A DNA stretch of 38,618 bases from Rickettsiales bacterium (GTDB taxonomy: Bacteria; Bacteroidota; Bacteroidia; Cytophagales; Cyclobacteriaceae): assembly GCA_002729235.1 (NCBI GenBank), contig PBTY01000073.1, forward strand, positions 45,265 to 83,882, written 5' to 3'. Of this stretch, positions 6,925 through 38,618 are shown in pieces; within the stretch, counting starts at the first letter, position 1; every line of letters begins with the position of its first letter. The notes beneath the pieces were generated by a model that saw only the letters and a program-made list of their open reading frames with translations, was not told where the DNA came from and did not search any database. The position numbers and the translations under genes are program-made.

Positions 6925-6981
6925 TTGGTGGGGCAAAGTGGTGGGATTGGAAAAATTTTACTTTTTGGTGGGGGAAAGTGG
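6925..6981 (+). promoter_or_regulatory. Second cluster of GTGG boxes, opposite orientation
   Basis: GTGG cores occur at 6928, 6938, 6968 and 6978, so pairs are 10 bp apart and the two pairs are 40 bp apart. AAAGTGG is intact at 6935-6941 and 6975-6981, and a weaker GATTGG lies in register at 6945. The boxes face the RAYT-A gene, away from mraZ. They could be extra MraZ sites in the intergenic region or a sequence carried by the RAYT-A element, since a related set recurs at 7728-7763. Confidence 0.45.
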
Positions 6982-6984
6982 GCT

Positions 6985-7701
6985 AATTCGGATTTGCAAT
7001 CCGAATTGCAGAGTTCATGGATTTGTAATCCACTTTTATTTCTTAATTTGATCTAATGGGAATCAAGAACAAAATAACTGATGGCTATCTGTACTTTGTG
7101 ACCATGACTGTGGTAGACTGGGTGGATGTTTTCACCAGACCACCTTACAAGCATGAGATAGTCAATTCTCTGAAACATTGCCAACAAAATAAAGGATTGG
7201 AACTGTACGCATGGTGTCTGATGACCAATCACCTGCATCTCATCGTCTCTGCCGCAGAAGGCCACAACCTATCAGACATCCTTCGCGACTTCAAAAAGCA
7301 CACCAATAAATCAATTATAAGAATCATCAAGGAAGAACCAGAAAGCAGAAGAGAATGGTTGCTGGATCGGCTGGAATTTAGTGGTAGATACAATCCTAAA
7401 ATCAAGAACTACAAATTTTGGCAAGATGGGAATGACGCCAAAGAAATCTACTCCAACGAGTACCTGGATCAGAAAATAGATTATATCCACAGGAATCCTG
7501 TAGTAGCAGAAATTGTATCAGAACCAGAACATTACTGGTATAGCTCAGCAAGAAATTATGCAGGGGAAAAAGGACTGATTGATGTTCTTTTAGCTGATTA
7601 AATACCTTATTCAGATTTGTAGTCCAATGAGCAACATTATTATTAAAACCGGATTACAAATCCTCTTTCTCTTTGCATCGGGATTTCAAATCCCGAAGAG
7701 C
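6985..7701 (+). mobile_element. RAYT-A/REP element
   Basis: A unit made of palindromes flanking a REP-associated tyrosine transposase gene. Left side: a perfect 10-bp inverted repeat AATTCGGATT-TGC-AATCCGAATT (6985-7007) and GGATTTGTAATCC (7019-7031). Right side: a degenerate copy near 7613-7625, GGATTACAAATCC (7651-7663) and GGGATTTCAAATCCC (7680-7694), then gaagagc. The same motifs in the same order recur without the gene at 10896-11015. This is the architecture of REP/RAYT domesticated elements; the boundaries are inferred from the outermost palindromes. Confidence 0.75.
7056..7601 (+). CDS. REP-associated tyrosine transposase (RAYT-A, Y1/HUH family)
   Basis: Single-strand DNA transposase of the IS200/IS605-related Y1 superfamily, which cuts at REP palindromes through a catalytic tyrosine. 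The 181-aa sequence shows the HUH motif in TNHLHLIV near residues 58-64. It also has the RAYT signature DYIHRNPV followed by YWYSSARNYAG near the C-terminus. The ATG is the one matched by the truncated copy at 7809, which shares almost every residue of the first 23. It lies between GGATTTGTAATCC palindromes. No frame damage is seen, so it could be active. Confidence 0.9.
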   Translation: MGIKNKITDGYLYFVTMTVVDWVDVFTRPPYKHEIVNSLKHCQQNKGLELYAWCLMTNHLHLIVSAAEGHNLSDILRDFKKHTNKSIIRIIKEEPESRREWLLDRLEFSGRYNPKIKNYKFWQDGNDAKEIYSNEYLDQKIDYIHRNPVVAEIVSEPEHYWYSSARNYAGEKGLIDVLLAD

Positions 7702-7727
7702 TGGGATTGATAGGAGTCTTTATACCA

Positions 7728-7889
7728 TTGGTGGGGAAATGTGGTAGCTGTGGGGGAAAGTGGGCTCATTCGGATTTGTAATCCACTTTTATTTCTTAAT
7801 TTGATATGATGGGAATCAAGAACAAAATATCTGATGGCTATCTGTACTTTGTGACCATGACCGTGGTGGACTGGGTTCATTTGGTCTAA
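7728..7889 (+). pseudogene. Truncated 5' copy of the RAYT-A element
   Basis: This stretch repeats the GTGG boxes, one GGATTTGTAATCC palindrome (around 7772-7784), the leader and the first codons of RAYT-A. An ATG at 7809 gives a 26-codon peptide (MGIKNKISDGYLYFVTMTVV...) nearly identical to the N-terminus of the intact gene, ending at TAA 7887-7889 where similarity stops. It is a non-functional remnant of a second insertion or of a tandem duplication. It also accounts for most of the 358-bp gap between the transposase and the next gene. Confidence 0.85.
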
Positions 7890-7959
7890 TATCCTTCTTG
7901 AAAATCACTAAGACACTAAAGACAATTTTGGATTTGATATATTAAATGCACTTTTACTT

Positions 7960-8577
7960 ATGCAGAAGATTCACCAGATAACAGATTCTCACCAAATCGG
8001 GCAGTACTTCGATGTATTCTTCAATTATGTAAGACGCCTCACCAATATTCCAGAAAGTGATCAAGAACTATGCAAAACGTTATTTAAGCCCGTATTTGTT
8101 AAGAGAAATACCATTATCGAATCTGAGGGCACTGTTCACAATTATCATAATTTTATTGTCTCTGGATTCATGCGCAATTTTCACCACAATGACGAGCATG
8201 AAGAAGTCACTACAGACCTGAACGATGGTCCTCGGTTCTTCACTTCCTACAGCAGTTTTATACATAGTACGGTATCCAAAGACAATCTTCATTGCATCAC
8301 AGACTGCCAACTACTCCGCATTAGCAGAGAAGATGTAGACATAGCTGCTCAAGAAGGGATTACTCAACAGGAATACAGTCAAAAAATTCTGGAGCAACTA
8401 CTAGAGAAAAATAGACAGAGGGCAATCGAATTAACAACGCTAACCGCAAAAGAACGCTACCTCAAGCTTATGACTGTACATCCTGCAATTATTCAAAATG
8501 TACCGCTGACCTATATAGCCTCTTATCTAGGCATTAAGGCTGGCAGTCTTAGCAGAATAAGAAATGAATTGGACTAG
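7960..8577 (+). CDS. Crp/Fnr-family transcriptional regulator
   Basis: A 205-aa protein with a cyclic-nucleotide-binding-like beta-barrel in the N-terminal two thirds (VKRNTIIESEGTVHNYHNFIVSGFMRNF...) and a C-terminal helix-turn-helix ending in PLTYIASYLGIKAGSLSRIRNEL. This is the typical layout of the many Bacteroidota Crp-like one-component regulators. No Cys cluster for an Fe-S centre is present, so it is not an oxygen-sensing Fnr. The ligand is unknown. It may control the membrane protein gene 89 nt downstream; that is inference from position. Confidence 0.85.
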   Translation: MQKIHQITDSHQIGQYFDVFFNYVRRLTNIPESDQELCKTLFKPVFVKRNTIIESEGTVHNYHNFIVSGFMRNFHHNDEHEEVTTDLNDGPRFFTSYSSFIHSTVSKDNLHCITDCQLLRISREDVDIAAQEGITQQEYSQKILEQLLEKNRQRAIELTTLTAKERYLKLMTVHPAIIQNVPLTYIASYLGIKAGSLSRIRNELD

Positions 8578-8666
8578 CATTAATTCACAAATGTGAAGTG
8601 ACCAATCAGGGTGCTACCACTAATTTTAAGAATCCTTATATGAACTTAAACTAAACGTTCAGCTAC

Positions 8667-9113
8667 ATGATTCTTAAATCTCTTTTTGCAATTAATCCTG
8701 CCACAGGCCTACCTCCGTTTCGAATCTATTTACTTCGACTATACTACATCCTAATGATCGTTGTATTAGGAAAAGATGTATGGACTACCATCCTGACACA
8801 CCAGGAGGCCTGGGAACCTATGAGAGCTGTTGGATATAGTTTATGGGGAACCTTTGCTGTGCTTTCCATTATTGGGTTGTTGCATCCAGTAAAAATGTTG
8901 CCAATTATTCTTTTGAATATTACCTACAAGATCATATGGTTAGCCATCGTGGCCTATCCGCTATGGTCGAGCGGTGAGTTGGAGGGATCAGGAGCGGAAG
9001 GATTAACCAAATCCAATTTCACTGGTTTTATGATCGACTTGGTTTTTATTCCATGGGTATATGTTTTTAAAAACTTTCTTTTCAGCGTTAGCCGAACAAG
9101 CCCCGAATCATGA
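8667..9113 (+). CDS. Small integral membrane protein
   Basis: A 148-aa hydrophobic protein with about four predicted membrane segments (roughly residues 20-38, 57-75, 80-98 and 122-140). The sequence contains an LLHPVKMLPIILLNITYKIIW stretch seen in uncharacterised Bacteroidota membrane proteins. No catalytic motif is recognised. It is placed between two Crp-type regulators on the same strand and may be a target of either. Confidence 0.7.
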   Translation: MILKSLFAINPATGLPPFRIYLLRLYYILMIVVLGKDVWTTILTHQEAWEPMRAVGYSLWGTFAVLSIIGLLHPVKMLPIILLNITYKIIWLAIVAYPLWSSGELEGSGAEGLTKSNFTGFMIDLVFIPWVYVFKNFLFSVSRTSPES

Positions 9114-9163
9114 AACTACAACACGCTTAGTTTTTACACTGACCAAGTGATTGACATTTAGTT

Positions 9164-9179
9164 TTTGTCAAATGACAAA
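9164..9179. promoter_or_regulatory. Crp/Fnr-type palindrome upstream of the second regulator
   Basis: TTTGTCA-AA-TGACAAA, a 7-bp perfect inverted repeat with a 2-nt centre, 33 nt before the regulator ATG at 9213. It has the same pattern (TTTGYCA-N2-TGRCAAA) as the palindrome before the reductase gene at 9790-9805. Size and symmetry fit a Crp/Fnr dimer site. A weaker half-matching copy, TTTGTCA-GA-TGAAA, overlaps the start codon at 9205-9218. Confidence 0.65.
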
Positions 9180-9212
9180 TTCCAGCCAAAAAGCAATCGC
9201 TAGTTTTGTCAG

Positions 9213-9782
9213 ATGAAAGAGTTTATCGAATTCATCCTGCAGTTCGGAAATCTGAATGAACAGCAAATTGGACTTATCTCTAAAAAGAGTCAGGTAGTTG
9301 AACTTGAAAAAGGTGACTTCTTTTGGGAAGCCGGGAAAAGCATCAAATATGTTGGATTTACTATAAAAGGCATTTTGAGGGTGTATTACTATAACAATCA
9401 AAGTGAGGAGATTACCCGATACTTTATCGATGAAAATCTTTTAATACTGTATGGACCACATATCGAATCCAACTATATACCGTCAGAATATTTACAAGCT
9501 ATTGAGAAATCTGAGCTTGTGGTTTTTTCAAAAAAAGACTGGAAAGAAATATCAGACACCATCATTGGATGGGATAGCATTATTCAAAAGATAGAAGCCA
9601 AACAGCATCGGGAAAAACTAGACCGAAGAAGCCAACTCGTTTCGCAGGATGCATCTACTCGCTATCTCGACTTTATGCAAAAATTCCCTAACCTGATCAA
9701 TCGAATCCCTCTATCATATATCGCATCTTATTTGGGAATTACTCAATCTTCATTAAGCAGAATTAGAAAAAACATCCAGTAA
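9213..9782 (+). CDS. Crp/Fnr-family transcriptional regulator
   Basis: A 189-aa one-component regulator: a cNMP-binding-like barrel (KGDFFWEAGKSIKYVGFTIKGILRVYYYN...) followed by a C-terminal helix-turn-helix ending in PLSYIASYLGITQSSLSRIRKNI. It is paralogous to the regulator at 7960-8577, which ends in an almost identical recognition helix. A 16-bp palindrome upstream and an equivalent one just past its stop, before the aldo/keto reductase, suggest autoregulation and control of the reductase. The effector is unknown. Confidence 0.87.
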   Translation: MKEFIEFILQFGNLNEQQIGLISKKSQVVELEKGDFFWEAGKSIKYVGFTIKGILRVYYYNNQSEEITRYFIDENLLILYGPHIESNYIPSEYLQAIEKSELVVFSKKDWKEISDTIIGWDSIIQKIEAKQHREKLDRRSQLVSQDASTRYLDFMQKFPNLINRIPLSYIASYLGITQSSLSRIRKNIQ

Positions 9783-9789
9783 GCCGCTT

Positions 9790-9805
9790 TTTGCCATATG
9801 GCAAA
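9790..9805. promoter_or_regulatory. Crp/Fnr-type palindrome upstream of the aldo/keto reductase
   Basis: TTTGCCATATGGCAAA is a perfect 16-bp palindrome located 8 nt after the regulator stop and 57 nt before the reductase ATG. It matches the pattern of the site at 9164-9179 in 12 of 16 positions, including both TTTG/CAAA ends. It is likely the operator of the regulator encoded immediately upstream. Confidence 0.65.
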
Positions 9806-9855
9806 GGATTCCATATTTCCATGATTGAGCTTTGTTTCATAATCATTTAAAATAG

Positions 9856-10830
<975 letters not shown>

Positions 10831-10842
10831 CGGATTTAATGA

Positions 10843-10866
10843 CAAAGCGGTTTTTGAACCGCTTTG
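10843..10866 (+). terminator. Terminator hairpin after the aldo/keto reductase
   Basis: CAAAGCGGTT-TTTG-AACCGCTTTG is a perfect 10-bp stem with a 4-nt loop starting 13 nt after the stop codon. The following T tract is poor, so it may act as a 3'-end stabiliser as well as a terminator. Confidence 0.7.
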
Positions 10867-10895
10867 CTTCAAAAATGGCAGCACAATTTCCAGCT

Positions 10896-11015
10896 CATTC
10901 GGATTTGCAATCCGAATGGAAGAGGCTATGGATTTGTATTCCAGCTACTGTAGCAAATAAATACGGATTACAAATCCTCCTACTCTATGCCCAGGGATTA
11001 CAAATCCCGAAGAGC
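10896..11015 (+). mobile_element. Transposase-free derivative of RAYT-A (REPIN/MITE-like)
   Basis: Four palindromes in the same order and orientation as the ends of the RAYT-A element: CATTCGGATT-TGC-AATCCGAATG (10896-10918, perfect 10-bp arms), GGATTTGTATTCC (10930-10942), GGATTACAAATCC (10965-10977) and GGGATTACAAATCCC (10994-11008) followed by gaagagc. The coding part is missing. It is best read as an internally deleted, non-autonomous copy mobilised in trans. Small open frames across it have no coding character. Confidence 0.75.
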
Positions 11016-29448: not shown

Positions 29449-29967
29449 CTAACCATCATAATGACTCAGAAATGAAAATGAATCATCCTGATGCTCATAA
29501 TACCTAGCCGAAGAATAGCAATAAGTAGCCGCGAATTGACATAAACCAGCTTTTACGGGATTGTTATGGATGTATACAAGCTTCTGTAATAAAACTGAAT
29601 GACTCGACAGTGGAACATTTAACGAATTTCTTTGCCAAATTTGATACTTGCGGTCCTTCCTATTGACTTCTAACTTTTTGAGTAGGTCATCATGACCATT
29701 ATTCTGCAAGAAAAACTTAAGCTGTTGACCAGTAAATTTTAGAAAGTCACGCTGAACCTCTTGCATTTGAAAACCGGATCTTATTTGCCAAATCAAATGA
29801 ATGTGGTTGTTCATAATGACAAATGCATAGATGTAAGCTCTTTTATTTTCTACAAGAAATTGTAAACTATCTAATATGATCTTTTTGGTCTCTGGAAATT
29901 CTAAGACGGGTACCCAATCCGTGATAGTAGCTGTAAAGAACTGAGCATAATCATCTATGATTTCCAT
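29449..29967 (-). CDS. REP-associated tyrosine transposase (RAYT-B)
   Basis: Y1/HUH transposase of the REP-associated type, 172 aa from the ATG at 29967 (MEIIDDYAQFFTATITDWVPV). The open frame reaches 30132, but the added residues come from repeat-like DNA and are not family-like. The HUH motif is MNNHIHLIW with His55 and His57; the C-terminal signature is YIHNNPVKAG followed by YCYSSARYY. It is only distantly related to RAYT-A (7056-7601) and has entirely different flanking palindromes, so two separate REP systems coexist here. Confidence 0.87.
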   Translation of the reverse strand: MEIIDDYAQFFTATITDWVPVLEFPETKKIILDSLQFLVENKRAYIYAFVIMNNHIHLIWQIRSGFQMQEVQRDFLKFTGQQLKFFLQNNGHDDLLKKLEVNRKDRKYQIWQRNSLNVPLSSHSVLLQKLVYIHNNPVKAGLCQFAATYCYSSARYYEHQDDSFSFLSHYDG

Positions 29968-30245
29968 CCATGGAAGATAACTGATATTACTGAAATGAAT
30001 ACTCAGTAAAGTCGGGAGACTTTCTATACTTTTCTTGGACACGAGCGACACGCTCGCGCCAGCTAGGCTATGAAAGCCTGAGCCTATGCAGGTGTTCATG
30101 ACGCTTACGATCATGACAGGTATCACCTTCATTTATTATGTGCGAAACATTTCTTGTTGGTGATAACACCAACAAAGGCGAGGGACATTCAAACTACACC
30201 TAGCCTGGGTGTAGATACAATATACACCTAGAACCTGATTTTTTT
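29968..30245. repeat. RAYT-B right flank: REP palindromes
   Basis: Non-coding side of RAYT-B. Near 30046-30058 is GAGCGACACGCTC and near 30066-30079 AGGCT..AGCCT, both small palindromes. TTGTTGGTG-ATAA-CACCAACAA (30154-30175, perfect 9-bp arms) matches the family of 29409-29432 and 27694-27715. CTACACC...GGTGTAG (30194-30214) matches the CTACACTT type, with another half copy near 30223-30230. No gene is seen. Confidence 0.6.
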
Positions 30246-30452
30246 TTAAACTACACTTAGATGGGGGTAATAAGTAAATGTATGATACACGTCATTAATC
30301 ATTATACTATATGTGTGTTCAATGGTTATAAAATTACCATAATCAGTGCTTAAACCAACTTTTTTCACCGTTCCATCCATCACGGAATTAACTCTAGAAC
30401 CTACAGGCGCATATAAATCATGGCCTGCGTGCCATTGAGTAGTACCTTCAAC
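30246..30452 (-). pseudogene. Broken M23 (LytM) peptidase fragment, probable displaced RHS tip
   Basis: Reading leftwards from about 30452, 68 codons translate to an M23 endopeptidase segment: TQWHAGHDLYAPVGSRVNSVMDGTV, then STDYGNFITIEH and YHTFTYYPHLS, ending at a TAA at 30246-30248 inside a REP-like sequence. The HxxxD zinc motif is recognisable, but the second zinc HxH strand region is missing and there is no start codon. It follows the immunity gene without a gap. This is typical of silent remnants of displaced toxin tips in RHS loci, here apparently cut by a RAYT-B repeat. Confidence 0.7.
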
Positions 30453-30769
30453 TAAGCATCTTTAATCCTGTAGTTAATGATCCTTTCTGCAATTTCTCGG
30501 TCTGTGCCTAAAGGTTTTGAGTAATCTCCATATACTTCTAATAAATGCTCTAAAGTAAAAAGGTTGTAATACTTCTCATTATCAACCTCCATTTCAATCA
30601 TCCCTTCGATCACCTCTCCATCAAAAATCACCATCTCTGATTCGATACTTAAAGAACCTTTCAAATAGACTTCTGCGTCATAATAGTCAACATCAGGATA
30701 ATGCTCATTCATATATTGAATAGCTTCTTCTTCATCCTTAAGATATTTAGTAAACTCTATCAAGTTCAT
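30452..30769 (-). CDS. Candidate immunity protein for RHS tip 1
   Basis: From the ATG at 30769 (MNLIEFTKYLKDEEEAIQYMNEHYPDV) this gives 105 aa; a longer frame to 30814 would overlap the toxin end and is not needed. The protein is small, soluble, without signal peptide and strongly acidic, as expected for an inhibitor of a basic nuclease. It starts 10 nt after the stop of the RHS WHH-type tip. I do not recognise a named immunity family; the role is inferred from position and composition. Confidence 0.65.
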   Translation of the reverse strand: MNLIEFTKYLKDEEEAIQYMNEHYPDVDYYDAEVYLKGSLSIESEMVIFDGEVIEGMIEMEVDNEKYYNLFTLEHLLEVYGDYSKPLGTDREIAERIINYRIKDA

Positions 30770-30779
30770 AATCTCATAA

Positions 30780-31847
30780 TTAATATCCACCACCCCAAAT
30801 AGACATTCCACCACGTCCTCCTGGGTGTAAAGTGTTCCAAAAAATACTTCCTGGTGTATGCTGTGTTTTAGGCACTAATTGCATTACGCCTTGACCAATA
30901 TCATGATGCCAAACCCAATTGTGCGGGGAACTATTCATTACAATACCTCCATTAGATCTTGTTTTCATCACAATATTTAATTCAGATAACATAGCCTCAT
31001 CAAAGGTAGCTAACATTGCTCTATTAGCTGCTGTTATATGGCGACTTGAATTAACCCCCGGAAATAGATTTTTCGCTAAAGTATACTCAAAAGCAACTGA
31101 ATAAAAAGAACCATCTGCTACAGCAGTGGCTGTAGATAAAGCAGAACCTCTAAATAAAGGACTAGTTAAATAAGAAGTATATTGAGCCCCACCCGTAAAA
31201 AAACTCAAAGGTGCAGTAGTCACTAGAAATCCAAAAGTAAAAAATGCCTCCCCAGATTCAGCCCGCATATTATTCAAAATCACTGAATATGCAAGACCCG
31301 GCTGAATAGAATTTAGAATATCTATGGACTGCTTATGACCTCTCACAGCATTGTATTGGAGTGCTCCCATCATGGTCATGTTATTCCAATGAGCAGGATT
31401 ACTCGCTGTAGCATCTGATGGTGTTGGATCAACATCACCTGGTAATGTTCCCCACTGCTTTCCGGTTACAGTGACATCATCTAAAAGAACTGATTCGCTA
31501 CCTCCAATAGTAGTTGTTGGAGGATCTCCGTTTTGCAATTCAGAATCATCATACATTGACCCATAATAATTTCCATGCGTTGCTCGGGCCAAATCCCCAT
31601 TAGGACTCATTCCTAAATAATCAATAAAACGGATGGGGTTATTCGCTGCGTAAGTATATGGGGATTGAAAAGAATAATCCTCACTCATTAAATCAATTCC
31701 CATAAACCTACCAAGAGCAGGATCATGCATCCTCGTATCAAAATCAAGGACTCCCCACTCCTGTTGTTCTTCCTTACCATTGTACTTATACAGGTTTTCT
31801 TGGCCACTCGAATACGAGTTAAAGGTTAACCCGAAAGGATAGTAATT
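30780..31847 (-). pseudogene. RHS C-terminal fragment with WHH-type nuclease toxin (tip 1)
   Basis: A 355-codon open segment that begins inside an RHS protein (NYYPFGLTFNSY...NGKEEQQEWGVLDFDTRMHDPALGRFMGIDLMSEDYSFQSPYTYAANNPIRFIDYLGMSPNG) and so lacks the large RHS shell. The first ATG in frame is at 31730. A variable region follows, and the C-terminus holds SPHNWVWHHDIGQGVMQLVPKTQH, the signature of the WHH branch of HNH/EndoVII nucleases found in polymorphic toxins. The segment stops being RHS-like at the 68-bp repeat 31836-31903. It is an orphan tip: silent unless recombined onto a shell or restarted internally. Confidence 0.8.
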
Positions 31848-31903
31848 TATGCGATTTTTCTGCTGTCCCCGTTTTTGAACCAGTATCTCCCAGAAAAAAA
31901 TCC
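31836..31903. repeat. 68-bp RHS-junction repeat, copy 1
   Basis: Exactly identical over 68 bp to 38426-38493 and in the same orientation. It begins within the codons for YYP of the RHS core and extends upstream of each tip. Within it GATTTTTCTG (31853-31862) and CAGAAAAAAATC (31891-31902) form an imperfect stem around a 28-nt loop. No other copy occurs in the window. It marks a common breakpoint or recombination site of the two tips. Confidence 0.85.
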
Positions 31904-32775
31904 GGTTGAACCCAAAGCCCTGTCCATCAAAATGTCAACAAAATTTTTAAGGCCGTCCGCCTCGGTTCGAAGATAATTATTTCCTGTGCGGGAAGGAAGG
32001 AAAGACGTTTTTTTGATCGAAGTGCGCCCTTGTAAAATCTCTGTTGATGAACGTAATCGCTATGGGCGTGCTTCGGGCAAAAAAATGATCCAAACGGGGC
32101 TGCAAAGCTTGATCGGGGCAGTTGGGTTCTCCCGTGCGGAAGGCTGCACTGATCTTTCCCATTTTGCGCCTTTGTGCGCTTTTAAATAAGCCCCGGTTGA
32201 TCCCGGGGTTTGGGGTTAGATTCTTTGGCGGCTGGCTTTTTTGTGGGTTGGGATTGGCTCGCCGCCTGCGAGTGCCCTGACAGCCCGGCCGGGGAAAGCG
32301 ACCAACGGGAGTGACCGGGCGCCAATGCCCATACCTACCTGCCGGAGGCTTTATTAAATCAAGTATGGGCATGGCTGGCAGGGCCGCAGGCGAGCATAAA
32401 CACGGGCTGTGGAGCTACCCCCAGATTAATCAACTGTGGCTTTGCCACACCTATTTTTGGGGTCTGGGGGGAGTGGGAACAGCCGTGACGAGGAGCGGAT
32501 GGGCAGCAAGTGGAGTAAAATGCAAGTGAGCCTTGAGGGGGGCTAAATATGCGCTGTACTCTGATACCGCTCTCATGCTGTGGAGCTTGCCGGAACAGGA
32601 TAATCATTTCAACTAATCATCAGTGTACAGCGCATGTTTTAAGGCGTGAAGACTTGCAGTTTTACGGAGCGAAGCCTGACCAACGCACCACAGGAACACC
32701 GCTTTACCAAGTGCATGCCGAAGGATGCACAGCCTTGTGCGGTGGGTTTCCTGGGTTGGTTTGTGCTGTTGGGAT
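31904..32775. other. 872-bp non-coding region with long hairpins
   Basis: No frame here has coding character. Structures seen: CCCCGG..CCGGGG near 32191-32207; a long imperfect hairpin from about 32257 to 32397, with GCTCGCC/GGCGAGC-type arms outside and perfect TGCCCATAC (32326-32334)/GTATGGGCA (32363-32371) inside; and perfect 11-bp arms ATGCGCTGTAC (32549-32559)/GTACAGCGCAT (32625-32635) enclosing 65 nt. It lies downstream of the recombinase genes and could hold the element end, recombination sites or a structured RNA. Confidence 0.55.
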
Positions 32776-33696
32776 TTAGAGCGGATGGTATTGGTTGAGT
32801 TCTTCTTGCAAGCCTTCCAGATCGTTTTGTAAGTAGCTTTCTGTCGTGCTGATGTAGCGGTGGCCAGCCAGGTATTGTGCCTTTCTCAGGTTGTACATTT
32901 TCACCCATTTTGTGATCACACTTGCCCTGATCTGTTTGGCATTCTGAACGCTTGGATTGATTTTTCGAACCTTGATCATGAGCTGGGTCATGAAGTTGCT
33001 CAGGCTGTAACAGTTTCCCCCTTCCCCGATAAATAGTTGTTCCGTTTCCTGTTGCTGCTGGCTTTTTCTCTTGGGCTTCATCTTGAGGATTTCCGGCCGT
33101 ACCTGCAAGATGTAATCGTACATATCCATGACCTGATGGGATTCCAGCTGCATCAATCGCCCGTTGTTCTTTCTGCTGCCTATCACGTCTATTTTCCCTT
33201 CTCTGAGCTTCACTTCTTTGGTGGTCATCCTGTCCAGTTCTTCGGTTCTGATTCCCTGATAAACGAGTAGTCCAAGCATCACTTTGTTTCGCCTGTCTCG
33301 GTGGGTTTCACTTGGATATTGATTGTAAAGTTTGTGCAGTTCGTGAGGTTCTAAAATGTGGTAAAGCACTTGTCTTTTGATGCCTTTCACTTCGATTCCT
33401 AAAGTTGGATTAACAGTTACCTTGCCCTCTTCTTCCAGATGGTTGTAATAGTGCTTTACTGTGTTCAGATAGTGCTGGATTGTCTTTTGGGATATGCCTT
33501 GTTTGGTGCAGCTTCTCATAAATCCCAGCAAGTCCTGATAACTGACCTGTTCTGCTTCCATCCGTTCTTTTGCCACCCAGTCCAGGTAAAGTTTGATCAC
33601 TCGTTTGCTGGTGGCCAATGTGCCGTGACTGAACTGCCGTGCCTTTAAGTAGCTGATAAATCTTTCTGTCTCATTCATCCTCATGGAGTTGGGCAA
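32776..33696 (-). CDS. Tyrosine recombinase/integrase with altered HxxR box
   Basis: A 306-aa phage-integrase-family protein: an N-terminal SAM-like core-binding domain (about 8-95) and a catalytic domain. Arg150 (YQGIRTEEL), Lys near 176, Arg257, His279 (AGHRYIS) and the nucleophile Tyr288 (TESYLQN) are in place, but the HxxR box reads KQIR (254-257), with Lys for His. Variation at this position is tolerated in some recombinases. Its start overlaps the end of the companion recombinase by 26 nt, so the two are coupled and may act as a heterodimer like XerC/XerD. Confidence 0.88.
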   Translation of the reverse strand: MPNSMRMNETERFISYLKARQFSHGTLATSKRVIKLYLDWVAKERMEAEQVSYQDLLGFMRSCTKQGISQKTIQHYLNTVKHYYNHLEEEGKVTVNPTLGIEVKGIKRQVLYHILEPHELHKLYNQYPSETHRDRRNKVMLGLLVYQGIRTEELDRMTTKEVKLREGKIDVIGSRKNNGRLMQLESHQVMDMYDYILQVRPEILKMKPKRKSQQQQETEQLFIGEGGNCYSLSNFMTQLMIKVRKINPSVQNAKQIRASVITKWVKMYNLRKAQYLAGHRYISTTESYLQNDLEGLQEELNQYHPL

Positions 33697-34681
33697 TTTC
33701 GTATTTCGGGATGTTGGGATAGTCCTGTTCTTCGGTGTTTTCCAGCCCAGCCAGATGCGTGTAAATCTGGGTACTCTCTAAACTTCCATGACCTAAAAAC
33801 CTACTGATACTTTCGATCCGCATTCCTGCTATCATCAAGTGTGTTGCAATGCTGTGTCTGAGTGTATGGAGTCCAATTTCCTTTTCTAGCAGGTTCAGGT
33901 TTCCCGATCGCTGCTGCAATAATTTCAACCGGATAAACAAGCTCTGTCCCTGCATCCTGAACCCTCGCTGACTTAAAAACAGAGCATCAATGGTGCTGCT
34001 CTTTACTAATTGGTTTCTGTGATCGTAGATGTATTCTGTCAGGTATTTCAGGCTGGTTTTACTGATCGGAACGAACCTTTCTTTGTAGTTCTTTCCCTTC
34101 CTCACATACAGGATTGATTTGTCGAAGTTGATGTCTGATAAGTCCAGGTGTACTCCTTCATTTCTCCTCAACCCACAACCATAATAAATCGCTAACATCG
34201 CCCTGTCTCTGGCTTGGATCGCTGCCAGTACTGCCTCTGGTACATTGGGTTTTCTTTCTCCTGTCTGGTGGCTAGCCTCAAAGAGCAGTTTGATTTCTTC
34301 CTCTGTCAAAAAGGTGATTCGGTGGTTTTCTTCTTCATTGTCCAGTTTGAGGGCTGGCAGTTGGATCCTGCCTACTTTTCTCAGGTAATCGGTGAACTTT
34401 CTGAGTGCCTGGATATGCTTGTTTAGATGTCCATTGCTCAGCCCACCACCACGTCTTTGTCTTGTCCTTTCTTTGAGCTTTTCATAATGGGCGTTGATGT
34501 GCTTTATTTCCAGTTCTTTGATGTGATTGATCCCCTGGCCTTCAAGGTAATGGAGCAACTCCCTGACGTGGTTGGGAAGGTTATAAACGGTCGTATCCGC
34601 AAAGCCTTGTATATCGAGCCACTCTTTGAAGCTCTGCTCAATAAACCGGAACGAAGGGTTTTTGATGGGTAGTCTTTTCAT
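33671..34681 (-). CDS. Tyrosine recombinase/integrase (XerD-like)
   Basis: A 336-aa recombinase with a full canonical active site: Arg172 (CGLRRNEG), Lys near 195-197, HTLRH (272-275 box), His298 (GHGS) and the nucleophile Tyr307 (QIYTH). The N-terminal core-binding domain spans about 10-105. It is encoded between the ATPase gene (4-nt ATGA overlap) and the second recombinase (26-nt overlap). It is the better conserved of the pair and probably the main catalytic partner. It is too far from the chromosomal dif machinery in context to be the housekeeping XerD. Confidence 0.92.
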   Translation of the reverse strand: MKRLPIKNPSFRFIEQSFKEWLDIQGFADTTVYNLPNHVRELLHYLEGQGINHIKELEIKHINAHYEKLKERTRQRRGGGLSNGHLNKHIQALRKFTDYLRKVGRIQLPALKLDNEEENHRITFLTEEEIKLLFEASHQTGERKPNVPEAVLAAIQARDRAMLAIYYGCGLRRNEGVHLDLSDINFDKSILYVRKGKNYKERFVPISKTSLKYLTEYIYDHRNQLVKSSTIDALFLSQRGFRMQGQSLFIRLKLLQQRSGNLNLLEKEIGLHTLRHSIATHLMIAGMRIESISRFLGHGSLESTQIYTHLAGLENTEEQDYPNIPKYEIAQLHEDE

Positions 34682-36321
34682 TCCGGTGTACCTTTCTGAT
34701 TCTGCTGGCTCGCTCCGTTTAACTTACTGGTTTTCTTCCCTTTAGGTGAGCCATTTGACGAGTGGCTTACGCCTGGTGCACTAGCTTGCTTACACTGTCC
34801 CAAAACTTCATCCAGGACGCTTGCAATGCTCTGTTTGAGCTTTTCGTATTCATCAGGACTAATGATCTCGTATTGATAACCTGTTGCTTTCTTTCCGCTC
34901 TTGACCCTGATCAACCCAACATCCAAAAGCTGGTGGTGGTATCTTCTGAGTGTAGTCCCTTTGATCCGCAGGTTTGCCCTGATTTCACGGTTCATAAAGA
35001 TGTCTTTGCCTTCTTTCCTGATCCATGCTTTCAACCCTTCAAAGTAGTCCCTGCAAGCTCCATTTAGTTGATCAGACTTTCGGATCAGCACTTCTTTCAT
35101 CAGTTTATTCGCTTCTGCAATGTCCTCTAAAGTCGTCTCGATGTATTCTTCCCCTGTTTGCTTGTCGTATTGCTTTTCCCTCTGGTACTGGTGGTAAAAG
35201 GTCACCACCTCGATAAAGGCCAGGTAATGGGCGTTTGTCCTTCTGGGTTTAAAAACTTCACTGGGGATTTTCAGGTATTCGGCAAAGGGGTTCCGGATCG
35301 TCACAGGCTGCAAGACTCTCTGCATGTTCCGGAAGGCTTCTTTTACTTTCGTTTCTTCTGTCAGGTCGATCTTTCCGGCTGCCAGCTTCCTTTGATAGTC
35401 CATGATCCGTTCGTCCTGTTCCGGTGATTCGTCCACATAGATCAGGAAGCTCCTGTTTGCATTATCCTCATAAATGGATTCTTTGGTAGTACATCCTGCT
35501 ACACAGACCGGGCCTTCTACGATCAGGTTTACCGTTCTGGTTTCTCCTTTGGTGTTTTTGATCACTACCCGTTTGGTGATCCGCTTTTTGCTCTTGATCT
35601 CCCTGAGAGGGTACAACACTTCTTCCGCTCCGTCCAGGTCTTCTATCAATATCAGCTTATGCCTTAGTTCTTGCTGGCCAAAATAATAGAGTGCGTTTCC
35701 TGACAGGGTGGTGATTTCCAGTTTGTCTTCTGCTGGGATCAGGTCGGCTACTTTCTCTTGCAGGTGGGTCTTTCCATTTCCTGAACTTCCAAGACTGATC
35801 ACATGGAGGGGGTTTTCTCTTTTCCGTGTAGTGAAGATCAAGTATTCAAGCAATCTGTTCATTTCCTCACCGATCACACCCGCTTTGCCGATATCCTCTT
35901 TCGTTCGCTCCATCAGGTTCGGACTGGACAGGTAGAGTTTGGCTTCCTGGATTTCTTCGGGTGTGAGCATTTTCCTTTTGTCCTTGGTGGTGATTTCCTT
36001 TTCCTTCTCTTCCAGCCGGTAGGCTTCCAGTAGATCAATCAAGTCCATCAGTGCAGCAGCTATGATACTCGTCCCGATCTCTAATCTTTCTGCAACCATT
36101 CTCACCAGCTTGTCCACCTGTAGGCTGTTGTATAAGTCCAGGTTGTGGCGCAAGCTCAGATGCTCCACTTTGATTTTCAGTGTTACTCGCATCCGATCCA
36201 GTATGTCTGTCCTGATTCCGCCCAGGATCGCTATCTCTATCATATCATGTTGATAAAGGATGTGATCGGGATTGCTGGTGTCTAAATGTCTGGTGGTGGG
36301 TAAATTTTCTTCACTTTTCAT
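34678..36321 (-). CDS. AAA-type ATPase with C-terminal winged helix (element accessory protein)
   Basis: A 547-aa cytoplasmic protein. Residues 1-165 are helical. A P-loop ATPase follows with Walker A GSSGNGKT (178-185) and Walker B LILIEDLDG (223-231), and the hydrolysis region includes VCVAGCTTKESIYEDNANRSFLIYVDES. A winged-helix-like region near 455-490 (MNREIRANLRIKGTTLRRYHHQLLDVGLIRV) could bind DNA, and the tail is low-complexity and basic. It resembles the helicase-like half of primase-type mobile-element proteins without the zinc finger or Toprim parts. First gene of the recombinase operon. Confidence 0.75.
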   Translation of the reverse strand: MKSEENLPTTRHLDTSNPDHILYQHDMIEIAILGGIRTDILDRMRVTLKIKVEHLSLRHNLDLYNSLQVDKLVRMVAERLEIGTSIIAAALMDLIDLLEAYRLEEKEKEITTKDKRKMLTPEEIQEAKLYLSSPNLMERTKEDIGKAGVIGEEMNRLLEYLIFTTRKRENPLHVISLGSSGNGKTHLQEKVADLIPAEDKLEITTLSGNALYYFGQQELRHKLILIEDLDGAEEVLYPLREIKSKKRITKRVVIKNTKGETRTVNLIVEGPVCVAGCTTKESIYEDNANRSFLIYVDESPEQDERIMDYQRKLAAGKIDLTEETKVKEAFRNMQRVLQPVTIRNPFAEYLKIPSEVFKPRRTNAHYLAFIEVVTFYHQYQREKQYDKQTGEEYIETTLEDIAEANKLMKEVLIRKSDQLNGACRDYFEGLKAWIRKEGKDIFMNREIRANLRIKGTTLRRYHHQLLDVGLIRVKSGKKATGYQYEIISPDEYEKLKQSIASVLDEVLGQCKQASAPGVSHSSNGSPKGKKTSKLNGASQQNQKGTPE

Positions 36322-36336
36322 GATGTAGCCATATTT

Positions 36337-36372
36337 GACTACAATAATACAAGATATGATTATATCACCAAA
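36337..36372 (-). promoter_or_regulatory. Promoter and operator of the recombinase operon
   Basis: On the minus strand TTTG (complement of 36369-36372) is followed after exactly 19 nt by TATTATTG (complement of 36342-36349), close to TAnnTTTG. The operator half TATTGTAGTC (complement of 36337-36346) overlaps the -7 element. Its exact mirror lies in the divergent XRE promoter, so the XRE protein probably blocks this promoter. The leader to the ATPase ATG would be about 15 nt. Confidence 0.65.
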
Positions 36373-36425
36373 GCATTTTATGGTTTATTAACCCATCCTA
36401 GAAGTCATTTATGTCTATGATTACA

Positions 36426-36455
36426 TTGATATTGTAGTCTTTTCTGATACTTTTG
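36426..36455 (+). promoter_or_regulatory. Promoter and operator of the XRE repressor gene
   Basis: TTG (36426-36428), a 19-nt spacer and TACTTTTG (36448-36455) match the Bacteroidota promoter consensus. The operator half TATTGTAGTC (36430-36439) lies in the spacer and is the perfect inverted partner of GACTACAATA at 36337-36346, 83 bp away. This arrangement suits negative autoregulation. The leader to the ATG at 36475 is about 15 nt. Confidence 0.65.
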
Positions 36456-36474
36456 ATGACACAAGAGCTTATTT

Positions 36475-36828
36475 ATGGACACTTTTGGCGATAATCTTAA
36501 GACGGCACGGACACAAAAAGGTATCTCGCAAGGGCAGCTTGCAGAACTGATGGGGATTCATCCTACACATATTTCAAGGTATGAGCGTAACCAGACGATC
36601 CCGTCTGTGGATGTGGTCAAGAAGTTTGCGGACTTATTGGAAGTGTCTGCCGATATGCTGATCTACGGCTCGGAGGATGAGAAGGCCAAAAGCAAAATCA
36701 AGGATACCGAACTCTTGAATATGTTCACCAAAGCTCAGTCTTTAAGCGATGAGGATCGCAACTCTATCAAAGCCATGCTAAAGGCTTTTATCTTTCAGAA
36801 GGATATGCAAAAACACTTGGCACAATGA
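36475..36828 (+). CDS. XRE-family repressor
   Basis: A 117-aa lambda-repressor-like regulator: HTH_3 domain in residues 5-60 (LKTARTQKGISQGQLAELMGIHPTHISRYERNQTIPSVDVVKKFADLLEVSADML) and a short helical C-terminal dimerisation region. It is divergent from the recombinase operon, with a 153-bp intergenic region holding both promoters and paired 10-bp operators. The likely role is to keep the element quiet. Its stop overlaps the start of the small lipoprotein gene (ATGA). Confidence 0.9.
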   Translation: MDTFGDNLKTARTQKGISQGQLAELMGIHPTHISRYERNQTIPSVDVVKKFADLLEVSADMLIYGSEDEKAKSKIKDTELLNMFTKAQSLSDEDRNSIKAMLKAFIFQKDMQKHLAQ

Positions 36829-37109
36829 GATACATCTACATTTTACTATTCTGTTTATGCCTTACATGTTGTTCAACCCCTTACAGCGAACTTCAAGAAC
36901 ATTTAAAATCGGCTAAAGAAAAGCCTAGTGAGTATCTTTTTGTATTGAACGGAGTAGTCCTAAACGATTCCACAAAAAGCCAACTGAATGATCTAAATAA
37001 ATCTGATGTTTCTGTAGTCGAAAAAGTAAGTGAATCAGCTGCTAAAACCATCTATGGTGAGGATGCCAGACCAAACACCATCATTGTAAATACAACAAAT
37101 CTTAATTGA
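36825..37109 (+). CDS. Small lipoprotein with TonB-plug-like motif
   Basis: A 94-aa protein overlapping the XRE stop by 4 nt. The signal peptide MRYIYILLFCLCLTCC carries a lipobox (LTCC). The mature part reads FVLNGVVL...VVEKVSESAAKTIYGEDARPNTIIVNTTN, similar to the strand-helix-strand found at the end of TonB-receptor plugs (...V LK..sA.aiYG..A.nGvIlItT) and in BlaR1-like tails. Why such a protein rides with a repressor is unclear; it is either element cargo or a host gene captured in the operon. Confidence 0.75.
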   Translation: MRYIYILLFCLCLTCCSTPYSELQEHLKSAKEKPSEYLFVLNGVVLNDSTKSQLNDLNKSDVSVVEKVSESAAKTIYGEDARPNTIIVNTTNLN

Positions 37110-37110
37110 A

Positions 37111-37132
37111 AAAGCCCCTAAAAAGGGGCTCA
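37111..37132. terminator. Bidirectional terminator between lipoprotein and immunity genes
   Basis: AGCCCCT (37113-37119), a four-A loop and AGGGGCT (37124-37130), preceded by an A tract. It is located exactly between two convergent genes and would terminate transcription from the plus strand poorly and from the minus strand (T-rich side) well. Confidence 0.8.
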
Positions 37133-37142
37133 TTAGATATTT

Positions 37143-37529
37143 TCAAGATATATTCGGGAACATCTGAGAGACACGTTTTTGTTCTAATTCCCCCAATTTC
37201 TCTTTTGTCCTATTGTAACTTTCAGTATCAAACAATGCTTCTACCTGTTCTAAGTTTTCGCTTAAAAAGCTTACTAGTATGGACATGTCTGCTTTCTCAT
37301 TCAGTTTACTTTCTTGATCATCTATCAGTGACTTAATCAAAGCCACATCATACCAGTTATTAGTTTCTTTAACACTGCAAACATCTAACATCTCAAAAGA
37401 CTTGGAACTGCTAAACCTAATGGTCAACACTGATGATGAAAATTGCTCAACAAAGTCGCCAAATGAGTTTGACTTCTCACTAAGAACCTGTCGATATCCT
37501 TTAGACTTTAAATGCTCAATCAATTCCAT
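37143..37529 (-). CDS. Candidate immunity protein for RHS tip 2
   Basis: A 128-aa soluble protein starting 2 nt after the toxin-tip stop (MELIEHLKSKGYRQVLSEKSNSFGDFVEQFSSS...). It has no signal peptide or membrane segment and is mixed alpha/beta in pattern. I know no family name for it. The immediate downstream position on the same strand, mirrored by the other tip/immunity pair, is the basis for the call. Confidence 0.65.
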   Translation of the reverse strand: MELIEHLKSKGYRQVLSEKSNSFGDFVEQFSSSVLTIRFSSSKSFEMLDVCSVKETNNWYDVALIKSLIDDQESKLNEKADMSILVSFLSENLEQVEALFDTESYNRTKEKLGELEQKRVSQMFPNIS

Positions 37530-37531
37530 TT

Positions 37532-38437
37532 CTAAGGTTTTAAGAGTTTCATCCCGTCAGAGCTAAGTTTATACCCTTTGCTCAGCAGGTATTCTATTTC
37601 CTTTGCATAATAGCTCCCTGGCTTAATCTTATTCATTGGGGTGGCTAGTATTATATCATCACCTCTCCTTATCATCCTATCCAAAAACTTAGAGTTAGCT
37701 GCCCATCTTTCCGCATTAGTCATGGTATCCCAAATTTTGGTAGGTATACTAAACCGATTCGCGCCAATCTTATTGGCAAGATCCATGTATTCAGGAAAAT
37801 GTCCTAAGACAGTTGTTCCTCTTGTCGCAGCCTGCTTAGTAACTTGCTCGGCAACATCATCACCAAAATGTTTGGCCCACCAAGTCAACCCTTTCGAAAA
37901 AGCTTGTCTAAGCCCACCTAATCCAGTTATTAAATCTGCAAGATCATTGAATTGATTTTTTGCTTGCATCGAGTTATACAGGCCTACACTTTTTCTTAGC
38001 TGCCCTGCTTGTTCACTGTCTCCCAGATCATCCAGTGAAAAACCATTCTGACTTGCTTTATCCAAAGAACTTGCAACTGTTGCCCAATCTTGTCCAAATG
38101 GATCAATATCTTTCCCTGTCTCATTATCAACAAAGCGATGATCCCCTTCCTCTTTTTTGGCTAATATGGATTCACCGTTTATGATGACATAAACATCCAT
38201 TCCATCAGGATCAGCATAATTCACAGGATTATTTGCTACCCAGCTATAAGGAGATAAGTCATAGTAGTTTTCGGCATGGGGATCAGGAACTGGAGTCCTA
38301 ATTAAATAAGGATCATAAAAACGAGCATGGTTGTCGTACCACTGAATCTCTTGCTGATACTCTTTCCCTTGGTACTTATATTGATTTTCAACCCCCGAAA
38401 CATAGCTATTAAAAGTAGCCCCGCCAGGATAGTAATT
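37532..38437 (-). pseudogene. RHS C-terminal fragment with uncharacterised toxin domain (tip 2)
   Basis: A 301-codon open segment starting at the RHS motif NYYPGGATFNSY and continuing KYQGKEYQQEIQWYDNHARFYDP...YSWVANNPVNYADPDG, the normal RHS core end. A 150-residue linker follows, then a C-terminal toxin domain: GTTVLGHFPEYMDLANKIGANRFSIPTKIW, AERWAANSKFLDRMIRRGDDIILATPMNKIKPGSYYAKEIEYLLSKGYK. I recall similar tails in many RHS and contact-dependent toxins but cannot name an activity. The shell is missing upstream; at 38426 the sequence runs into the 68-bp repeat. Confidence 0.78.
38335..38422. repeat. 88-bp inverted repeat, left arm (within RHS tip 2)
   Basis: Perfect reverse complement of 38531-38618, with the two arms separated by 108 bp. 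Both arms encode the RHS core from GATFNSY to QEIQWY in opposite directions. The right arm reaches the window edge and may continue. Confidence 0.9.
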
Positions 38438-38493
38438 TATGCGATTTTTCTGCTGTCCCCGTTTTTGAACCAGTATCTCCCAGAAAAAAATCC
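38426..38493. repeat. 68-bp RHS-junction repeat, copy 2
   Basis: Exact 68-bp copy of 31836-31903 in the same orientation, again starting within the YYP codons of the RHS fragment. The imperfect stem arms are at 38443-38452 and 38481-38492. Beyond it (38494 onwards) the sequence differs from that beyond copy 1, so only these 68 bp are shared. Confidence 0.85.
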
Positions 38494-38512
38494 CGCAAGC
38501 TCAAATTTTTGC

Positions 38513-38618
38513 AATGATTATACTCCCGGAGGGGCTACTTTTAATAGCTATGTTTCGGGGGTTGAAAATCAATATAAGTACCAAGGGAAAGAGTATCAGC
38601 AAGAGATTCAGTGGTACG
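38513..38618 (+). CDS. RHS core fragment, opposite orientation (partial)
   Basis: Reads rightwards out of the window: NDYTPGGATFNSYVSGVENQYKYQGKEYQQEIQWY. From 38531 it is base-for-base the mirror of tip 2, while the preceding codons differ (CCC GGA here, CCT GGC in tip 2), so it is a separate copy and not a simple fold-back artefact. No shell sequence precedes it; upstream is the 68-bp repeat and tip 2 pointing the other way. The frame is open upstream through the repeat. Its tip lies beyond the window. Confidence 0.7.

Follow-up and report, generated by a model that had tools for sequence, protein, structure and literature searches.

A mobile element with two tyrosine recombinases that probably replaces Rhs toxin tips in frame at conserved core codons

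The 68-bp repeat studied here forms the terminal part of a 6,590-bp mobile element (31836-38425, minus strand) in our window, a stretch of 38,618 nucleotides that ends together with contig C74. From the sequence comparisons, we consider it very probable (about 0.88) that this is a site-specific integrative element, which uses conserved Rhs core codons as its attachment site and replaces Rhs tips in frame. Insertion at one exact Rhs codon apparently provides a new toxin end together with a likely immunity gene, and pushes the old end aside. The movement of Rhs and CDI toxin tips between genes has been an open question since tip displacement was described, and the recombinase pair within the moving unit, together with a crossover resolved to the base, makes this question directly testable. 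If true, our reading would explain the clean-bordered shell-less tips in Rhs arrays, the arrays that repeat one tip, and the gain of a new weapon and its likely immunity by a strain in one step.

Results

Structure of the element

The element comprises, in this order, an Rhs toxin tip, a putative immunity gene, a lipoprotein-like gene, a repressor, an ATPase, two tyrosine recombinases and the end (Table 1). It carries the hallmarks of Rhs polymorphic toxins (i.e. Rhs_assc_core and a variable C-terminus), and TIGR03696 scored above its cut-off at 6 places of the genome. No Pfam match was detected at 37532-38224 of tip 2, and no Pfam or NCBIfam family matched the gene that follows it; the genes after the tips are named by their position, and their immunity function is putative.

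Table 1. Features of the element and its surroundings, in positions of the window.
Feature	Position	Strand	Basis
Whole element 2 (6,590 bp), first base of tip (38425) to right end (31836)	31836..38425	-	Unit spacing 6,590; unit also in contig C96; junctions base-resolved after Pro codon of YYP
Rhs tip 2 (core remnant and unknown C-terminal toxin-like domain), element-borne	37532..38425	-	Rhs core HMM match 38201-38434
Putative immunity gene of tip 2, 128 aa	37143..37529	-	Position directly after tip
Small lipoprotein-like gene, 94 aa (lipoprotein judged by eye)	36825..37109	+	ORF; no family match above cut-off
HTH repressor, divergent from ATPase/recombinase genes	36475..36828	+	HTH_3; NCBIfam RstR 91.7 bits (cut-off 80)
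ATPase, 547 aa, related to ATPase half of CHC2/toprim primases	34678..36321	-	SGxGK motif; tblastn to toprim/CHC2 proteins
Tyrosine recombinase A, full catalytic set	33671..34681	-	PF00589 4e-36
Tyrosine recombinase B, first catalytic Arg present here	32776..33696	-	PF00589 1.6e-11
Stretch between recombinase B and right end, no gene assigned	31904..32775	-	31970-32318 84.9% identical to matching region of module 1
Right end of element (terminal bases TACTATCCT), adjoining displaced tip 3	31836..31903	-	
Displaced Rhs tip 3, shell-less (YYP|FGLTFNSY..., WHH nuclease)	30783..31835	-	PF14414 WHH 27.8 bits (cut-off 25.1); Rhs core
Putative immunity gene of tip 3	30452..30814	-	Position after tip
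Right end, second copy, joined to tip 2 (circle or tandem junction)	38426..38493	-	Matching end-to-own-tip junction in C96:1-159
Inverted piece of tip 2 and end of module 1, at contig end	38494..38618	+	Join is a 12-nt inverted match AGAAAAAAATCC

Sequence comparison confirmed several points of an earlier sequence-only reading: the 68-bp copies at 31836-31903 and 38426-38493 match exactly as direct repeats, each adjoins the YYP codons of a minus-strand Rhs fragment, and the two fragments bear different tips (a WHH nuclease domain at 31 kb, and a tip without Pfam match at 38 kb). Between the copies we likewise recovered the two tyrosine recombinases, the RstR-like HTH protein and the 547-aa Walker A-like (SGxGK) protein, the last of these without a Pfam name. 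The left edge of the repeat directly follows the YYP Pro codon, and its right edge is an inverted junction, possibly chimeric, that lies 125 bp before contig C74 ends; this join may represent a rearranged molecule or an artefact.

A search of the window's own genome for the exact 68-bp string recovered a third copy, in contig C96. There, the whole module comes after the same end, which shows that the unit actually repeated measures 6,590 bp; the suggestion that the 68 bp are a discrete exchange cassette was thus abandoned. The imperfect stem proposed for these 68 bp (-4.4 kcal/mol, z = -0.65) was equalled or bettered by 49 out of 200 shuffles, and we rejected a stem-loop or attC-like reading because the 68-nt strand, folded alone, folds no better than shuffles. 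The broader idea that the tip and its immunity gene form a movable unit linked to the recombinases gained strong support from related genomes, where the corresponding ends sit at Rhs tips in many genera; the outcomes that the sequence-only reading had named as fatal to the idea were thus not seen. However, exchange maps to the YYP|FG codon boundary beside the repeat, which is itself the end of the element, and the recombinases travel within the moving unit; hence we regard it as an integrative element.

Recombinases, ATPase and repressor

The catalytic residues R, H, R, H and Y of recombinase A were conserved in all 67 aligned sequences. The recombinase B family is often catalytically degenerate, with the first Arg in 15 and the Tyr in 63 out of 67 sequences. 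In the 48-row ATPase alignment, S180, G183 and K184 of the SGxGK motif were invariant. Sequence search against solved structures gave best ATPase matches of only E = 0.058 and 0.08, the scan of viral contigs with the same alignment recovered no relative, and phage records gave weak matches only, in archaeal spindle viruses. In PADLOC, the HTH protein alone was matched, to generic HTH models.

Junctions, target codons and displaced tips

We resolved crossovers to the base at conserved Rhs codons (YYP|FG, DHLGN, YNGKE and DYGAR), and from these base-level junctions, both the ends of the element and its target sequence are fixed. In L071, L076 and contig C11 of the window's genome, the final mismatch between shell and element end falls on the third base of the Pro/Ala codon. 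On a recombinase tree limited to modules with two clean recombinase frames, the target codon class changed 6 times, compared to a mean of 13.5 after shuffling (0 out of 200 shuffles as low); DHLGN, one of the five target classes, was unclustered (2 rows, 2 changes).

Counting shell homology above 20 bits, 40 out of the 43 tips behind a recombinase pair had no shell sequence, and the other 3 begin at the DHLGN codons. The 162 tips that we compared formed 135 clusters, and Pfam named a toxin family for 2 of the 10 tips tested (Peptidase_M91 and Tox-HNH-EHHH). A GTTCTTTGA-like end motif was considered as a boxA-like antiterminator and rejected, since it was present in 13 of 40 end flanks but also in 6 of 22 shell flanks; it was also missing from three of four rRNA loci (L143, L145 and L146).

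Distribution and gene neighbourhood

Related modules were widespread, with the ATPase present in 34 out of 396 genomes of the same class, and the gene order was the same wherever these parts were found: tip, HTH gene (opposite strand), ATPase, recombinase A, recombinase B, next tip. Our first set contained 84 modules in 76 loci, with L081 (split ATPase frame) excluded from the neighbourhood count. The second set, drawn from other contigs, contained 38 modules at 34 loci, after 6 of 40 regions already in the first set were dropped and 5 of the 49 ATPase places outside the window's own genome were left out.

Among first-set modules with enough DNA, a same-strand Rhs core lay within 4 kb upstream in 35 out of 39, within 4 kb downstream in 24 out of 28, and on both sides in 16 out of 19; no opposite-strand core was found within 12 kb. 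The upstream misses with 4 kb of DNA were L013, L032, L044 (core 6.8 kb away) and L078, and the downstream ones were L007 (core 5.3 kb away), L009 (partial core 3.3 kb away), L014 and L047. In the second set, 36 out of 38 modules had a same-strand core on at least one side and 21 on both, and L120 had one opposite-strand core, 9 kb from the ATPase. Most modules with enough flank were located between two same-strand Rhs tips, the rear one mostly shell-less. Fourteen first-set loci out of 76, many of which are on short contigs, had no Rhs core at all, and none was found in the DNA read for two of the 38 second-set modules (L127 and L105, the latter with 29 kb upstream and 7 kb downstream). Six out of 23 upstream cores with more than 1.5 kb of DNA before them lacked a long shell ORF; some of these six are displaced tips themselves or split matches.

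In the window's own genome, an Rhs core precedes all four module places (two distinct modules, each assembled twice), and 13 others of the 21 tyrosine recombinase matches were on contigs that carry none of the six Rhs cores. Contig C116 was considered as an empty site, but it holds an Rhs paralogue that has a different tip and no element; it thus represents an intact Rhs gene from the same shell family and not a pre-insertion allele. Nine of the 76 loci were labelled Chlorobiota, Peptococcaceae, Spirochaeta or Saccharibacteria and may be misbinned; the Peptococcaceae recombinases were nearly identical to those of Geofilum, so we draw no conclusion about hosts from these labels.

Circles, tandem copies and cassettes

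End-to-own-tip junctions, as expected from a circle or a tandem, were present in contigs C11 and C96 of the window's genome. Three contigs of relatives (L007, L025 and L041) were self-closing, though tandem copies could give such closure too, and circular records of relatives had 8,758 bp and 11,289 bp, which tandem arrays could mimic. Two complete plasmids (L147 and L148) carried units in tandem. We also found cassettes that lack recombinases and keep the tip and a short downstream ORF (L064 and L080).

Discussion

We propose that recombinases A and B, with the ATPase helping and the divergent repressor in control, would excise the unit as a circle, in which the right end (...TACTATCCT) is joined to the element's own tip (GGC...). 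This circle, a presumed intermediate, would then recombine with an Rhs gene, the crossover falling between the YYP Pro codon and the one after it. The shell would thereby be fused in frame to the tip of the element, followed by its putative immunity gene, and the old tip and old immunity gene would be left shell-less behind the element's end. Repeated insertion would build arrays, and excision would restore the old tip; presumably, only the shell-attached tip is delivered. The parts assigned here to the ATPase, the repressor and recombinase B are likewise putative.

Integron gene cassettes form arrays of modules behind a platform. Our element resembles them in its module arrays and recombinase-less cassettes, but its recombinases lie inside the mobile unit, the fusion takes place within an open reading frame, the recombinases scored 22 and 89.8 bits for the integron-type integrase (TIGR02249), far under the cut-off of 265, and the 68 bp have no attC-like fold signal. 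Some integrative elements, among them phage 21 and e14 in icd, restore the 3' end of the host gene that they enter. They share with our element a tyrosine-recombinase insertion within an ORF and the supply of a 3' end; here, however, this end does not copy the host sequence but consists of a different toxin domain, accompanied by a putative immunity gene.

Zhang et al. 2012 (PMC3482391) reported XerC/D next to polyimmunity loci, suspected the recombinase of gathering immunity genes, and predicted that cassettes of tip plus immunity gene recombine at the 3' tip. Both the linkage and the cassette agree with our findings, though the accessible part of that work describes no element, ends, target codon or circle. 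The rAID of Bacteroidales, an array of orphan immunity genes, also has a tyrosine recombinase beside toxin-immunity genes in Bacteroidota, but the accessible part of its description includes no Rhs fusion or tips (PMC12247911), and our units consist of an Rhs tip and the following gene instead of short orphan immunity genes behind a recombinase. Full-text searches of one open-access library yielded no description of recombinase elements that replace Rhs tips.

Displacement of Rhs C-termini has been explained by homologous recombination with circles, in a model whose authors noted the lack of any known integrase alongside Rhs (Jackson et al. 2009, PMC2935791). As in that model, the incoming tip of our element would push the old one to a silent downstream place and a circle is the proposed intermediate; unlike it, there is a dedicated recombinase pair in the moving unit, the junctions are at fixed codons and the displaced tips mostly lack a core fragment (PMC2935791). 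Following this proposal for Enterobacteriaceae, recombination between core fragments could have displaced the tips here too, the recombinase module being a bystander transposon inserted between them. This would suit some other tips of these arrays, which are preceded by core/shell fragments (L009, L012 16476 and 17963, L034, L053 16984, L079 17519), and homologous recombination, the simpler source of the duplication in the sequence-only reading, could amplify or contribute to tandem copies. Nevertheless, tips behind the module start abruptly at fixed codons with the shell sequence absent (all but the three DHLGN tips, where core/shell fragments of variable length would be expected throughout), the junction positions recur across unrelated genera and are base-exact in three loci, and the target codon tracks the recombinase phylogeny; we therefore consider this explanation very improbable.

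An ordinary transposon that prefers Rhs genes, with tips acquired by chance and replaced without benefit, would accommodate the larger members that carry other cargo, such as the ORFs of L118 and L121 that resemble DNA methylases by eye. It is harder to reconcile with the same-strand tip before 30 out of 38 second-set modules (7 of the remaining 8 run out of contig) and with the retention of tip and short downstream ORF by recombinase-less units, and seems even less probable. The least probable reading is a resident invertase or shufflon-like system, reshuffling local silent tips within one genome without transfer between genomes: silent-tip arrays beside the shell and the inverted junction at the contig end would suit it, but cores near modules are on the strand of the module (with the single exception of L120), every full unit carries recombinases, the tips are as diverse as their clusters indicate, and related modules occur in 55 out of 5,426 E. 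coli genomes and are absent from K-12 rhsE.

Starting from the integrative element that we favour, a wider reading can be drawn, for which we see the odds as evenly balanced. Its type would belong to a broad class of mobile elements (HTH, primase-type ATPase and tyrosine recombinase) with a niche at the conserved junction of polymorphic toxin genes, whose members in Bacteroidota and Proteobacteria would hit different Rhs core codons and the region before CdiA tips, move as circles with a toxin tip and immunity gene, leave behind cassettes without recombinases in arrays that resemble integrons, and constitute a main route of warhead change in contact-dependent weapons. Distant relatives with a primase-type ATPase and XerC were found in E. 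coli rhs loci, including an element at an rhsE locus, and behind a CdiA-like gene of Paraburkholderia.

Repeated unit in the window

The window covers C74:45265-83882, its last base being the end of that contig. Both 68-bp copies in it are identical and in direct orientation, as the sequence-only reading had reported, and a third copy was found in contig C96 (68/68 bases matching) when the whole own genome (G000; 6.55 Mb, 116 contigs) was searched. The 68 bp are not the unit of repetition: C96 contains all of window 31819-38429 again, differing at 7 bases that lie without exception at the two borders, and the repeated unit is therefore 6,590 bp long (element 2). The apparent limit of 68 bp was set by an inverted junction at the contig end, where the right ends of elements 2 and 1 (end 2 and end 1) meet through a 12-nt inverted match, AGAAAAAAATCC; this junction may reflect a genuine inversion, or it may be an artefact (chimera). 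Throughout, RecA and RecB denote the two tyrosine recombinases of the element, a module comprises HTH, ATPase, RecA and RecB, and a tip is an Rhs core remnant with a C-terminal toxin-like domain. The immunity genes are putative, their role being read from position.

Features of the window, in unit order for element 2, and of related contigs
Feature	Location	Strand or remark
Element 2	window 31836-38425	minus; order as in the next eight rows
Rhs tip 2		
128-aa gene		putative immunity gene, by position after tip 2
Lipoprotein-like gene		opposite to rest of unit
HTH gene, RstR family		opposite to rest of unit
ATPase		547 aa
RecA		
RecB	window 32776-33696	
No assigned gene, then end		about 0.9 kb between RecB and end
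Second occurrence of window 31819-38429	C96:75-6685	
Third 68-bp copy	C96:93-159	
Right end joined to inverted tip 2 copy	window 38482-38618	at contig end
Recombinase-less cassette	L064 6060-7838	
Recombinase-less cassette	L080 14235-15834	
Repeat families (35-105 bp)	window 6968-11015	CGGATTTGCAATCCG-like cores
181-aa gene	window 7056-7601	resembles a REP-associated transposase by eye
Similar-looking gene	window 29449-30132	
41-bp repeat	window 27972, 29309	

Arrangement and junctions in the own genome

In contig C11 (locus L087), a 2,791-aa Rhs ORF, six of whose bases are undetermined, terminates in tip 1; behind it come a gene of 87 aa, HTH, ATPase, the recombinase pair, the end and then the start of tip 1 again. 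On C96 (L005) the order is the 3' portion of that Rhs gene, tip 1, module 1 and end 1, followed by tip 2, module 2, end 2 and once more the start of tip 2. In the window, tip 3 stands behind the end of module 2. Contig C116 carries an element-free Rhs gene of the same shell family (the shell being the upstream part of the gene) with an unbroken reading frame from shell to tip. The contig ends of C11, C96 and C116 share exact overlaps of 91 nt, and that of C74, the contig of the window, is 88 nt with a mismatch beyond; from these overlaps we infer that graph assembly probably broke at element forks.

Five junction types were seen among these contigs and the window: shell TACTATCCT / TTTGGTGGG tip 1, end 1 TATACTCCC / TTTGGTGGG tip 1, end 1 TATACTCCC / GGCGGGGC tip 2, end 2 TACTATCCT / GGCGGGGC tip 2, and end 2 TACTATCCT / TTCGGGTTA tip 3. 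Each of them leaves the third Pro base with the left partner and the following codon with the tip, which places the crossover exactly after YYP. As a control, we recovered 21 tyrosine recombinase matches in the own genome: 8 lie in the four module places and the remaining 13 on contigs without Rhs cores.

Modules in related genomes

An alignment of the two own ATPases was scanned against one genome per species (84,980 species) and gave 121 relatives, from which 76 loci were kept, 67 of them labelled Bacteroidota. Rhs cores were detected in 62 of the 76 with an iterated home-made HMM that started from the three local tips. Loci that have the parts show them in a constant order: tip, HTH (on the opposite strand), ATPase, RecA, RecB, next tip. 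This first set counts 84 modules, excluding L081 because of its split ATPase frame. Of the 39 modules with 4 kb of upstream DNA, 35 have a same-strand core within that distance; downstream the count is 24 of the 28 with enough DNA, and on both sides it is 16/19; no opposite-strand core was found within 12 kb of any of the 84.

Cores directly behind the recombinase pair lacked preceding shell homology above 20 bits in 40 of 43 cases, and the three exceptions start earlier in the shell, at the DHLGN codons. Among upstream cores with more than 1.5 kb of DNA before them, 17/23 lie in frames reaching at least 1 kb upstream; behind the module the longest such extension is 276 nt.

In the class of the window, taken as Bacteroidia, 396 genomes were searched and 34 have the ATPase, the own genome counted. 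A second set of 40 fetched regions covers 44 of the 49 ATPase places outside the own genome and, after dropping six first-set contigs, comprises 34 loci with 38 modules. A same-strand core flanks 36 of the 38 on at least one side and 21 on both; in the one-sided cases the contig or fetched stretch runs out, and in L105 and L127 neither side has a core. L120 has an additional opposite-strand core 9 kb from the ATPase. When nine loci apparently empty upstream were read further out, an upstream core appeared in six (genomes G195, G377, G074 and G175, all four in long ORFs, and G042 and G051), with core-to-core spans of 18.9 to 39.2 kb, and was still absent in three. In larger relatives (L112, L114, L117, L118, L120 and L121, with L130, L133-L135, L139 and L140) the Rhs tip and the recombinases are separated by other cargo, and L118 and L121 have ORFs resembling DNA methylases by eye. 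Within the open-access full texts searched, no description of such Rhs tip elements was found.

Target codons and recombinases

Where a tip was found behind both a shell and an element end, the shared sequence begins within the same codons or immediately next to them: YYP/FG (L069, L071, L076, L087, L102, L108, L011), YGFNGKE (L022, plasmid L148), YNGKE (L062), WYDYGAR (L058) or NHLGN (plasmid L147). In L071, L076 and L087 the sequences last differ at the third position of the Pro or Ala codon. On a quick RecA + RecB tree with some long branches, built from 67 modules of which 39 could be given a target class, the class changes 6 times, versus a mean of 13.5 with shuffled labels (0/200 shuffles as low); the two modules of the DHLGN class do not cluster together. 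Such clustering would be expected if the recombinases choose the codon. A GTTCTTTGA-like motif, perhaps a recombinase arm site, occurs 33-91 nt before the junction in 13/40 element ends (e.g. L055, L057, L062, L069-L071, L079, L080) and also in 6/22 shells.

All five catalytic residues tested are intact in the RecA of 67/67 modules, and its hairpin Lys in 55. In the RecB family the second Arg, His and Tyr are kept in 66, 65 and 63 of 67, and the first catalytic Arg is present in 15/67 and missing in 52/67. Since RecB mostly lacks the first Arg and keeps the Tyr, it may be an asymmetric partner in an asymmetric strand exchange. The ATPase aligns to part of plasmid-borne CHC2/toprim primases, and in the divergent modules L118, L119 and L121 a gene or domain ahead of it looks toprim-primase-like by eye.

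Tandem, recombinase-less and possibly circular forms

Among 57 whole contigs, the ends match each other over 79, 59 and 141 nt in L007, L025 and L041, which hold one element each, and over 23 nt in L044. One contig end recurs internally in L037, L076, L109 and the own C96, and also in C11. Complete plasmids of Aureispira and Aureibacter carry the unit in tandem with identical proteins. Tandem and circular forms are both compatible with these data. Two cassettes (L064, L080) lack a recombinase and consist of a tip, an ORF of 135 or 155 aa and an end; they are possibly mobilised in trans. The 162 collected tips fall into 135 clusters.

Relatives beyond Bacteroidota

Distant ATPase relatives occur in 27 plasmid records, of which five were opened, two being the Aureispira and Aureibacter plasmids. 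A Paraburkholderia plasmid (L149) has, in order, a haemagglutinin/CdiA-like gene, small genes, HTH, a toprim protein and XerC, followed by a truncated second pretoxin region with an ADP-ribosyltransferase tip; this is a putative module of the element kind that follows a CdiA-like gene and has a displaced tip behind XerC. An 8,758-bp circular record of Shigella flexneri contains an Rhs core and tip, HTH, SymE, a primase-ATPase frame, XerC and an ISEc1 transposase, and one of Lonsdalea populi (11,289 bp) contains nuclease and immunity genes, HTH, SymE, primase, XerC and a RelE-type pair; both could be collapsed tandem arrays.

The Shigella primase-XerC stretch has matches of at least 80% identity in 55 of 5,426 E. 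coli genomes, and the four opened regions (L151-L154) are rhs loci with primase-XerC modules and SymE beside displaced tips. One flank (6.7 kb) in E. coli R12 aligns to the K-12 rhsE locus, whose annotation has no comparable element; the displaced tip of R12 begins at DPIGL with no shell ahead of it.

Other repeats in the window

Apart from element 2, repeat families surround the 181-aa gene, and the similar-looking gene lies near the 41-bp repeat.
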